DNA from: Sphingopyxis sp. L1A2A | Lineage (GTDB): Bacteria > Pseudomonadota > Alphaproteobacteria > Sphingomonadales > Sphingomonadaceae | Assembly: GCF_005502465.1 (NCBI RefSeq) | Contig: NZ_SCOT01000013.1 | Location: 1 to 64,000 of the forward strand | Length of the DNA: 64,000 bases | Direction: 5' to 3' | In this document: piece after piece, positions 37,460 to 55,621 of the stretch | Numbering within the stretch: the first letter of the stretch is position 1 | How the letters are laid out: every line of letters begins with the position of its first letter | Notes under the pieces: generated by a model | What the model was told of the DNA's origin: nothing | Seen by the model: the letters and a program-made list of their open reading frames with translations, nothing else | Database searches by the model: none | Translations under genes and position numbers: made by a program

Positions 37460-38410
37460 TTGGGCTTGAAACACGATCGCACCATCAGGGCCTGTTCGAT
37501 CTGGCGCGCGCTCGACGTCGTCGGCGACGTGCCGGTGCTGTTGCTGATGGAACAGGCGTTGCTTGGCATCCACAGCTTCGACGAATTTGTCGCGCGCACG
37601 GGCCTCGCGCGGTCGGTGGTCAACGGGCGGCTGAAAAAACTGGTCGACGAAGATTGCCTGGCCAAGGTGCCGCGCAAGGGCGGCCGCGGCTTTCACTATA
37701 TGCTCACCCAAAAAGGCCGCGACCAGTTTCCCAACGGCCTGATGATGCTGCGCTGGCAGCATAAATGGGAGGCAGACAGCCGCGATTTTCAGGTCCGTCT
37801 GCACCATGCGAGTTGCGGCCACGCGACCGAGCCGGTGCCGACCTGCGCGCATTGCCGCGGTGAGATTGATCCGCGCGATGTCGACTGGCGCGAGGGACCG
37901 GGGCTGGCGCAGGTCGTCCCGCATTATGAGCGCCGCCGCTTCAACGGCGACGTCGGCACCCGGCGCCCCGGCGGGCGGCCGCTGGTCGATACGATGATCG
38001 AGCTGTTCGGCGACCGCTGGGCGACGCTCGTCGTCCGCGCGATGTTCACGCGGATTAACCGTTTCGACGACATTCAGCGCGATACGCTGATGGCGACCAA
38101 TATCCTGACCGGCCGTCTGGAGCGCCTGATCCGGCAGGGCATCATTCGGGCGGTTCCTTATTCCGACCGCAGCGACCGGTTCGAATATCGGCTGACGGCC
38201 AAGGGCCGCGATCTTTATCCGGTGCTGCTCGCGTTGCTGCAATGGGGCGACCGCTGGTTTTCGGACGAGCGCGGGCCGCCGGTCCTGCTCACCCATCGCA
38301 GTTGCGGCCACGATCTCCATATGGTGGTCGCGTGCAGCCATTGCGGCGACCAATTGCAGATCGAAAATAGCCGGTTCACGATCGAGCAGGCCGACGCTGC
38401 CGCAGATTAG
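37460..38410 (+). CDS. Transcriptional regulator with two HxlR winged-helix domains
   Basis: A 316-residue regulator built from two HxlR-like winged helices in tandem, about residues 8-105 and 165-270. The first starts CSIWRALDVVGDVPVLLLME and the second IELFGDRWATLVVRAMF. Each is followed by a cysteine cluster: SCGHATEPVPTCAHC after the first and SCGHDLHMVVACSHCG after the second, which could bind zinc. HxlR proteins usually work as dimers, so a fused dimer is plausible. TTG 37460 follows GCAAGGA; TTG 37466 is an alternative. The 3' end overlaps the convergent sulfatase gene by 35 bases. It probably controls the adjacent receptor and operon. Confidence 0.85.
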   Translation: MGLKHDRTIRACSIWRALDVVGDVPVLLLMEQALLGIHSFDEFVARTGLARSVVNGRLKKLVDEDCLAKVPRKGGRGFHYMLTQKGRDQFPNGLMMLRWQHKWEADSRDFQVRLHHASCGHATEPVPTCAHCRGEIDPRDVDWREGPGLAQVVPHYERRRFNGDVGTRRPGGRPLVDTMIELFGDRWATLVVRAMFTRINRFDDIQRDTLMATNILTGRLERLIRQGIIRAVPYSDRSDRFEYRLTAKGRDLYPVLLALLQWGDRWFSDERGPPVLLTHRSCGHDLHMVVACSHCGDQLQIENSRFTIEQADAAAD

Positions 38411-39986
38411 CCGGGGCGATAGCGGGTCCGGTGTCGTCGCCATATTGGCGGCGCAGCGCAATTAATCGCGTCTTCAGCGCCGTAATTACCCTCGCCATCG
38501 CCGGATCCGCGATGCGATTGTGCATTTCGCCGGGGTCGGTTTTCAGATCGTAAAGCTCCCATTCGTCGATGTCGGCGCCGTAAAAGCGCGCGAGTTTGTA
38601 CCGCTCGCCGCGCACCCCATAGTGCGCGCGCACCGCGTGAAAGCCCGGATATTCGTAATAATGATAATAGACGTCTTTGCGCCAGTCGGCCGGCGGCCGG
38701 CCGCTGAACAGCGCGCGCAGCGACCGGCCCTGGATCGTGTCCGCACCTTTTACCCCGGCGAAGTCGAGGAAGGTGGGGGCGTAGTCGATATTCTGGATCG
38801 GCGCGGCGACGCGCGAGCCGGGGCGGATATGCCCGGGATACTGGATCACAAAGGGCGTCCGCATCGATTCTTCATAGATGAAGCGCTTGTCGAACCAGCC
38901 ATGTTCGCCGAGGTAAAAGCCCTGGTCCGATGTATAAACGACGATCGTGTTGCGATCGAGACCGCTGTCCTCCAGATAGTCGAGGACGGCGCCGACCCCC
39001 TCGTCGACCGCCGCGACGGTGCCAAGATATTGCTGCATATAGCGCTGGTATTTCCAGCGCGCCATGTCCGGGCCGGTCAGGTTCGCGGCGTTCATCCGGT
39101 CGTTGTCGGGCTGCATCAGCGCGTCCCATTCGGCCTGCTGCCGATGCGTCATACGGTCGAAAGCGCCGGGCCAGCGGTTATAGCGCAGCTGCGGCGATCC
39201 TGCCGCGACCGTCATCTTCAGGTCGTGACCCTCATACATGTCGCGATAGATGTTCATTTCCTGCGCCGCCGCCGCCTTGCGGCCGCGATAGTCGTCGAAA
39301 TAATTGGCGGGCATGGGAAAGCTGACGCCCTGATATTTCTGCACATGGCGCAGCGCCGGCATGAAATTGCGGTGCGGCGCCTTGTGATGGATCAGGATCG
39401 CGAACGGCTTGCTTTTGTCGCGCCCGTTTTTCAGCCAGTCGAGGCTATATTGGGTGATGAGGTCGGTCGCATAGCCCTCGACGGTGCTGCGGCCCTTGGG
39501 CGTGATGATGTCGGGGTTATAATATTCGCCCTGATCGTCGAGCACTTTCCAGTCGTCGAAGCCGATCCCGGCGGGCGAATAGTTGATGTGCCATTTGCCG
39601 AACATCGCGGTCGCATAACCCGCCTCTGACAGCGCGCGCGGCCATACCCATGCCTTGTTGTCAAAGGTCGCCCCATTCTGCCGAAAGCCATGGGCATGGC
39701 TCTGTCGCCCGGTGAGCAGCGTCGCGCGGCTGGGGCCGCACAGCGAATTGCCGACGAAGCTGTTGGTAAAGATCGCGCCGTTCCGCGCGATCCGGTCGAT
39801 ATTCGGCGTCGGCGCCAGCCTCGACACCGCCGATCCATAGGCCGAAATCGCCTGATAGGCGTGGTCGTCCGACATGATATAGACGATGTTCGGCCGCGCC
39901 GGACTCGGTGCGGCCGCGCGAGCGGCGGCGGTTCCGACGGTCAGCAGCGGCGCGGCGACGATGGCGGTGATCAGCATCCGGTGCAT
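38376..39986 (-). CDS. Type I sulfatase (formylglycine-dependent), secreted
   Basis: A 536-residue arylsulfatase-superfamily enzyme with signal peptide (MHRMLITAIVAAPLLTVGTA). The N-terminal metal site is NIVYIMSDDHAYQ (Asp40, Asp41). SLCGPSRATLLTGRQ has the CxPSR motif, so Cys83 should be converted to formylglycine. VVYTSDQGFYLGEHGWFDKR and the DUF4976-like C-terminus (VYYHYYEYPGFHAVRAH) are visible. It lies 14 bases after the GH3 gene and is likely in its transcript. Maturation needs a formylglycine-generating enzyme, which is not in this window. Periplasmic desulfation of a glycan is inferred. Confidence 0.92.
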   Translation of the reverse strand: MHRMLITAIVAAPLLTVGTAAARAAAPSPARPNIVYIMSDDHAYQAISAYGSAVSRLAPTPNIDRIARNGAIFTNSFVGNSLCGPSRATLLTGRQSHAHGFRQNGATFDNKAWVWPRALSEAGYATAMFGKWHINYSPAGIGFDDWKVLDDQGEYYNPDIITPKGRSTVEGYATDLITQYSLDWLKNGRDKSKPFAILIHHKAPHRNFMPALRHVQKYQGVSFPMPANYFDDYRGRKAAAAQEMNIYRDMYEGHDLKMTVAAGSPQLRYNRWPGAFDRMTHRQQAEWDALMQPDNDRMNAANLTGPDMARWKYQRYMQQYLGTVAAVDEGVGAVLDYLEDSGLDRNTIVVYTSDQGFYLGEHGWFDKRFIYEESMRTPFVIQYPGHIRPGSRVAAPIQNIDYAPTFLDFAGVKGADTIQGRSLRALFSGRPPADWRKDVYYHYYEYPGFHAVRAHYGVRGERYKLARFYGADIDEWELYDLKTDPGEMHNRIADPAMARVITALKTRLIALRRQYGDDTGPAIAPANLRQRRPARS

Positions 39987-40000
39987 GATGGCGCGCGATC

Positions 40001-55408: not shown

Positions 55409-55546
55409 TCAGTAGACCGTCGCGCCGACGACGATGATCGCCGGCGCCGGAAAGATAGCTGTGGCCGGGCTGAAGCGCGCAATCGGGGTCGCCATCGCAT
55501 TCGATCGTTCGCCACTGCTGGCGGACGTCTGGCTGGGTACGTCCAT
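55409..55546 (-). CDS. Possible short upstream ORF in the ABC operon leader
   Basis: A 45-codon frame starting ATG 55546 with AGGATATCAGG upstream, 27 bases before the ATPase gene. It encodes a mostly hydrophilic N-terminal half and a hydrophobic tail ([20 protein letters not shown]). No family is recognised. It lies 62 bases downstream of an operator and may be a leader peptide or the remains of a gene. Confidence 0.3.
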
Positions 55547-55607
55547 CCTGATATCCTCTACGCCGTTCTTATGTTATGCCAAAGGTCTAACGAGAGGCCG
55601 GAACCAA

Positions 55608-55621
55608 TGCAACCGGTTACA
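55608..55621. promoter_or_regulatory. LacI-family operator candidate upstream of the ABC operon
   Basis: TGCAACCGGTTACA, 13 of 14 bases of the shared palindrome. It lies 227 bases upstream of the ATPase ATG and 62 bases upstream of the short frame. The other side faces guaB, but the three sites together point to the glycan locus. A half-site, GGTTACA, occurs again at 55731. Confidence 0.75.

Follow-up and report, generated by a model that had tools for sequence, protein, structure and literature searches.

What does a LacI-family regulator control in a glycan-utilisation locus of Sphingopyxis sp. L1A2A, which glycan is the locus for, and is one of the regulator's operators written into the active-site codons of a gene under its control? 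The locus lies in a 64,000-nucleotide stretch of contig NZ_SCOT01000013.1 (the window, meaning the whole stretch that was analysed), in which an earlier note had pointed out three shared operator-like sites around genes for a GH3 beta-glucosidase, an outer-membrane receptor, a GH144 enzyme, an ABC importer and a LacI-family protein. The best explanation, in which comparisons of sequence give us considerable confidence, is that a LacI-family repressor runs a dedicated beta-1,2-glucan utilisation regulon that includes a fourth site, inside the GH3 gene. The known part would be a regulon of an ordinary kind for beta-1,2-glucans, and the new part is the internal candidate operator. The sites are as follows.

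41386..41399, no strand assigned: intragenic candidate operator TGTAATCGGTTACG, within the VTDY codons of GH3; on the GH3 strand (C)GTA ACC GAT TAC A
42427..42432, plus strand: possible -10 element TATACA of the receptor-GH144 promoter, conserved, read by eye; 7 bases before operator A
42440..42453, no strand assigned: predicted operator A TGAAACCGGTTACA, between the divergent GH3 and receptor genes
54266..54279, no strand assigned: predicted operator B GGTAACCGGTTACA, upstream of lacI
55608..55621, no strand assigned: predicted operator C TGCAACCGGTTACA, heading the (MFS-)ABC-lacI operon

Shared predicted operators and their distribution

The motif TGTAACCGGTTACA is concentrated in the locus. 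At up to three mismatches, the window holds four matches against 0.40 expected from shuffles. The sites at 42440, 54266 and 55608, which the earlier note had placed within one mismatch, each differ from the motif by exactly one base, and the genome search that it had proposed showed that the motif is not scattered at random: in all 3,706,695 bases, these three are the only places within one mismatch. Relaxing the threshold to two mismatches gave five places, namely the three named sites, 41386 in GH3, and one on contig 11 that was set aside, lying within a long open frame and without visible link to the locus. The reversed pattern, taken as a control, matched at 7 places with two mismatches allowed and at 1 with one allowed. 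The two-mismatch class is at chance level genome-wide, and the one-mismatch class alone stands out by itself.

Across the genus, the sites go together with the GH144 gene. Upon splitting 80 Sphingopyxis genomes by the presence of the window's GH144 gene, we found sites within one mismatch in 38/38 positive genomes (102 sites, summed by hand) and in 2/42 negative ones (2 sites), while the reversed control pattern yielded 11 sites in the positive versus 22 in the negative genomes (likewise summed by hand); Fisher's test for co-occurrence over the 80 genomes, kinship ignored, gave 1.6e-20. Of the 37 other genomes with the GH144 gene, we fetched 20 (the genus relatives). Operator A was letter-identical in all 20 of them, operator B was found in 17, and operator C was present in all 19 whose contig reached far enough, with one mismatch in 16 and two in 3; in the remaining genome, the contig ended first. 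In a broader collection, the best 80 of 554 confirmed stretches (the named loci), 68 sites at up to one mismatch were counted in 1,532,628 bases, whereas 60 palindromes with permuted halves gave 0.07 on average and never more than 1; close relatives are among these loci, which share some genomes with the genus set and are not independent events.

The sites also go together with the regulator. We counted 94 loci, leaving out 12 of 106 unique ones that were shorter than 15 kb or had a GH144 identity below 50%, and found a site within one mismatch in 54/71 loci with a LacI gene in the stretch versus 3/23 without. Among the 56 sphingomonad loci, the figures were 50/50 and 2/6. Three observations weigh against a single shared regulon: the 17 of 71 LacI-bearing loci that lack such a site, all of them outside the sphingomonad set; the 3 of 23 that carry one with no LacI in the stretch; and the distant loci L177-L228, where only 17/52 hold a site at up to two mismatches. 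As judged by these comparisons, the motif drifts and is often different in distant groups; in four of those 17 distant loci, from Lysobacterales (L179-L182), close variants of the operator are kept at the divergent promoter of GH1 and ABC genes. Overall, genome specificity and co-occurrence with both GH144 and LacI support the proposal, already contained in the earlier note, that one LacI-family regulator with shared predicted operators governs the locus.

At operator A, the element TATACA is invariant in an intergenic alignment of 21 genomes, with the operator starting 7 bases after it. A sigma-70 scan of the GH3-receptor intergenic region returned no promoter-like site, so that statements about promoters rest on conservation read by eye. 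A second short palindrome, GGCCGAAATTCGGCC, lies at 42367-42381 between the GH3 start and operator A, and a similar form is kept in all seven relatives displayed. At operator C, the operator and the ABC gene are separated by a sugar MFS gene in 19/20 genus relatives (in L090 only in part, at a contig end); L084, the nearest relative, gave no MFS match at the position where the window has a remnant. By this comparison, operator C seems originally to have preceded the sugar MFS gene and now stands before the ABC operon in the window. The guaB gene diverges from the operator C side, starting at about 55812.

A candidate operator within GH3 codons

The three sites of the earlier note were real, but a fourth had been missed. 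It lies about 0.94 kb into GH3 and about 1.05 kb from operator A, carries two mismatches to TGTAACCGGTTACA, and is kept in 20/20 genus relatives. The VTDY motif of GH3, whose codons it overlaps, presumably holds the nucleophile. On a tree of 25 genus GH3 genes (24 relatives and the window), built without the internal-site region, codons 315-318 underwent no change versus 14.9 expected from amino-acid-matched columns (Poisson 3.5e-7), and codons 315-321 underwent one versus 21.8 expected. These seven codons also form the longest codon-invariant run in ten genes of the locus over 21 genomes, the next run having four codons. In a wider set, we counted the exact 13-mer GTAACCGATTACA in unique GH3 genes encoding VTDYT or VTDFT (78 matches at a coverage of at least 85%, 64 of them unique, less 5 without a motif match and 13 with other motifs, leaving 46) and found it in 32 of them. 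It is intact outside Sphingopyxis in genus g5 (six genomes), in L114 and in the Sphingomonas metagenome-assembled genome L167, making four lineages overall. The single GH3 paralogue of the genome, taken as a control, gave no motif match, which weighs neither way.

Could these codons be held by mRNA structure, translation, the protein or shared descent, the match being no operator at all? Two mismatches put the site in the class that is at chance level genome-wide, and slow change reaches past the palindrome into codons 319-323. Moreover, 14 of the 46 GH3 genes lack the exact 13-mer and differ from the operator consensus at 3 to 5 positions, and two of these (L107 and L116) are just one base away from it; the internal site is hence not essential to the regulon. 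These points weigh against an operator in GH3, yet Val315 is encoded by GTA in 21/21 genomes, whereas 0/26 other invariant Val columns are fixed for this codon. Twelve relatives spell the stretch with at least two differences, L114 and L110 have altered neighbouring codons and nevertheless retained the 13-mer, and all 35 loci that hold the 13-mer carry LacI. We therefore regard the absence of an operator as unlikely. Less probable still is that the internal operator governs an internal promoter for the sulfatase, and not GH3 itself: while the sulfatase lies downstream of the site on the same strand in the window, 13 of the 20 genus relatives that keep the site show no sulfatase.

The GH3 gene would thus contain what lacO2 exemplifies, a repressor-site match within a putatively regulated gene that is conserved beyond the demands of the protein. 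The pattern suggests that selection on a candidate repressor site, and not on the protein alone, holds the internal codons, and we consider it likely that the active-site codons of GH3 double as a LacI-family operator, whose synonymous bases are selected across four sphingomonad lineages, making the stretch a dual-coded sequence. If true, this would be a clear-cut example of a regulatory site that is under selection within a catalytic motif, and intragenic operators may be widely overlooked, as searches for motifs do not usually extend far beyond the start codon. Phasing along the DNA helix between the two operators linked to GH3 was considered and dropped, their spacing varying from 1025 to 1067 bases (by hand).

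Gene content, substrate and proposed working of the locus

The gene calls of the earlier note hold throughout the locus, which comprises the following predicted members.

38376..39986, minus strand: S1-type sulfatase, optional member, with CGPSR motif; nearest solved chains 9s03, 7p24 (mucin-desulfating) and 5g2v (GlcNAc-6-sulfatase)
40001..42340, minus strand: GH3 beta-glucosidase, BglX-like; signal peptide by eye, BglX equivalog over cut-off, Lin1840 among matches
42567..45602, plus strand: outer-membrane receptor of 1011 amino acids, GTG start at 42567; CarboxypepD_reg and beta-barrel, no plug domain detected
45660..47165, plus strand: GH144 (PF10091) endo-beta-1,2-glucanase; lipoprotein-type N-terminus by eye, open reading frame start as listed, ATG at 45672 also possible
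47166..48029, minus strand: EEP-family phosphoesterase, exported by eye; similar to 4c1r, a mannosyl-6-phosphatase
48026..49372, minus strand: GH1 beta-glucosidase, without signal peptide by eye
49369..50148, minus strand: alpha/beta hydrolase (esterase-like), exported by eye
50145..51065, minus strand: ABC permease
50957..51853, minus strand: ABC permease
51850..53178, minus strand: solute-binding protein, start codon uncertain; best solved relatives 3uor and Lin1841
53135..54178, minus strand: LacI-family regulator, ATG start at 54178; PF00356 and PF13377
54296..55381, minus strand: ABC ATPase (MalK/UgpC type)
55409..55546, minus strand: MFS sugar transporter remnant with an internal deletion; 45 codons and a stop left

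The regulator combines the helix-turn-helix domain PF00356 with the periplasmic-binding-like domain PF13377 of the LacI family, and the sulfatase carries the C-x-P-x-R maturation motif as CGPSR, in a stretch that aligns with 7p24 and 5g2v. The receptor, called a TonB receptor in the earlier note, stood as a 1011-residue outer-membrane barrel and fell short in its plug: barrel families were found, and PF07715 was not detected at E 0.01, while the same search detected it in the neighbouring receptor at 34934. The family searches listed no SusD protein for the locus, which in this respect differs from a SusC/SusD polysaccharide utilisation locus of the Bacteroidetes type. We take the sulfatase to belong to subfamily S1_11, the receptor to be of the sort called 'Oar-like', and chain 5xxl to be BT_3567. 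The plug-bearing TonB receptor and an HxlR-type regulator (window 34934-38410) border the locus and stand beside it in several relatives.

Which glucan the locus serves is indicated chiefly by GH144. Its nearest solved chain, 8xul, is XCC2207 (XcSGL), with 533 bits, a GH144 enzyme with activity on beta-1,2-glucan; in the part of the substrate table at hand, it showed none on any other glucan (PMC12102758). E236, F284 and Y367 of the window protein correspond to the XcSGL clan residues E239, F286 and Y367 (numbering by hand) and are invariant in 12 homologues. The GH3 protein matches BglX above cut-off and has Lin1840 among its solved relatives, and Lin1841 is the second-best solved relative of the binding protein. 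Two details count against this assignment: the 8xul chain has Q where the window enzyme has E236, probably as an engineered mutant, and the best relative of the binding protein, 3uor, is presumably the Xanthomonas citri 'MalE', not a beta-glucan binder. As described in the accessible part of one study, Lin1840 prefers sophoro-oligosaccharides, Lin1841 binds Sop3-5, and a GH1 enzyme acts on sophoro-oligosaccharides (PMC12369401). Because GH144 is nearest to the assayed XcSGL, and binding protein, GH3 and GH1 are consistent with it, the beta-1,2-glucan substrate tentatively proposed in the earlier note is supported. A family search of the genome gave no OpgG match, no GH94 match and no second PF10091 protein, and the glucan is therefore probably foreign, made by other organisms. 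Taken together, these relationships indicate that the locus very probably uses beta-1,2-glucans from other bacteria. A GH3 paralogue (34%) stands beside a paralogous MFS transporter (42%) on contig 28 of G000, 28322-32122, and may mark a second glucoside cluster.

A broader purpose, the use of general beta-glucosides or plant beta-glucans such as cellobiose or laminarin with GH144 as an incidental member, seems quite improbable to us. GH3 and GH1 are broad families, for which the family search names only BglX and a beta-glucosidase, but GH144 directly follows the receptor in the unit behind operator A, its nearest assayed enzyme is specific for beta-1,2-glucan according to the part of the report at hand (PMC12102758), and the binding protein is related to Lin1841. 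GH144 was the query by which the compared loci were collected, so that its presence in them proves nothing. Compatible with beta-1,2-glucan utilisation is a more tentative extension, which we regard as possible rather than probable, namely that the regulon is directed at other bacteria's envelope glucans, either decorated or alpha-1,6-closed, with EEP, esterase, sulfatase and the GH97 of relatives removing decorations. The EEP and hydrolase genes are present in 20/20 genus relatives, and the EEP protein resembles a chain named mannosyl-6-phosphatase. GH97 forms part of the operon in 5/20 of them (L090, L095, L097, L098 and L099) and is preceded by a TGTAACCGGTTGCA site of its own in six named loci from genera of the Erythrobacter type (L163, L164, L166, L168, L172 and L174); Xanthomonas makes an alpha-1,6-cyclised beta-1,2-glucan, as the excerpted source has it (PMC11228985). 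The extension is, however, drawn from genes, the Xanthomonadaceae loci gave no EEP or hydrolase match, and the genome's own GH97 lies on another contig without an operator at up to one mismatch. Sulfation of the substrate, which the earlier note had thought possible, is not a defining property, since only 7/20 genus relatives have the sulfatase.

For the utilisation of beta-1,2-glucan, we propose the following working of the locus. The glucan would pass the outer membrane via the receptor and, given the strong homology to an assayed enzyme, would be cut by the GH144 lipoprotein to sophoro-oligosaccharides. The EEP phosphoesterase, the esterase-like hydrolase and, where present, the sulfatase may remove substituents; as their families suggest, periplasmic GH3 would trim the oligomers, the ABC system import short ones, and cytoplasmic GH1 finish them. 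Without inducer, the repressor would sit on operator A (the receptor-GH144 promoter and divergent GH3), operator B (lacI autoregulation) and operator C (the transporter operon), and would also bind and repress at the internal GH3 site, as at lacO2 in lacZ. The internal site probably strengthens the repression of GH3, either as a roadblock to elongation or by looping to operator A; no obvious tetramerisation heptad of the LacI type was seen by eye at the LacI C-terminus, an argument against simple looping. Beta-1,2-glucans have roles in symbiosis and infection, and the analysis offers a concrete predicted regulon for them, in which an importer, a receptor and a number of accessory enzymes are given predicted functions.

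A core made up of LacI, receptor, GH144, binding protein and permeases, in many cases accompanied by GH1 and the ABC ATPase, is also found in loci of Xanthomonadaceae, Myxococcota and some Gemmatimonadota. It occurs in Lysobacter, Stenotrophomonas, Luteimonas, Dyella, Tahibacter and Hyalangium, where the receptors are 32-43% identical. A receptor and an ABC importer predicted to stand under one LacI are hence not unusual, contrary to what the earlier note had assumed. The receptors of the genus relatives (L036-L055) fall into two groups by their identity to that of the window, with 64-68% in 9/20 and 79-97% in the other 11, while identity for GH3 and GH144 is 80-93%. The receptor gene may have been swapped as a cassette.

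Comparison with known systems

Among the literature matches listed, there was no description of a beta-1,2-glucan LacI regulon or of conserved intragenic LacI operators in these organisms, although one of them mentions the lacZ and purB sites (PMC4052901). That survey of LacI regulons, in its available portion, searched from -400 to +100 around start codons, which puts a site 0.94 kb inside a gene out of reach, and similar sites could have stayed unseen. It also predicts LacI-family control of beta-glucoside operons by BglR1-3 in Caulobacterales, likewise Alphaproteobacteria; we considered the Caulobacter name BglR and claim no membership, as the excerpted text gives no motif or gene content to compare (PMC4052901).

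In Xanthomonas campestris, which belongs to a different class of Proteobacteria from the window organism, XcSGL is of the same GH144 family, and XCC2208, adjacent by locus number to XCC2207, has been described as a receptor with no canonical plug, like that of the window (PMC1790865); the comparison runs via descriptions, and the excerpts describe no regulation there. Listeria innocua lin1839-1841 similarly joins an ABC binding protein and a GH3 enzyme for beta-1,2-gluco-oligosaccharides, according to the accessible text (PMC12369401). The Listeria cluster is that of a Gram-positive organism and, as far as the excerpt goes, uses a GH94 phosphorylase (PMC3960220), whereas the window locus has GH1 and an outer-membrane receptor instead and gave no GH94 match.

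The closest parallel to the internal site is offered by lac O2 in lacZ of E. coli, together with the PurR site in purB, as these too are LacI-family sites deep in a coding region, and lacZ too is a glycosidase gene under the same repressor. Of LacI-family sites, less than 1% fall in coding regions according to the part of the survey available, which names lacZ and purB (PMC4052901). Compared with lacO2, the candidate site in GH3, known from sequence alone, overlaps the codons of a catalytic motif about 0.94 kb into its gene, and these codons are held in four lineages.

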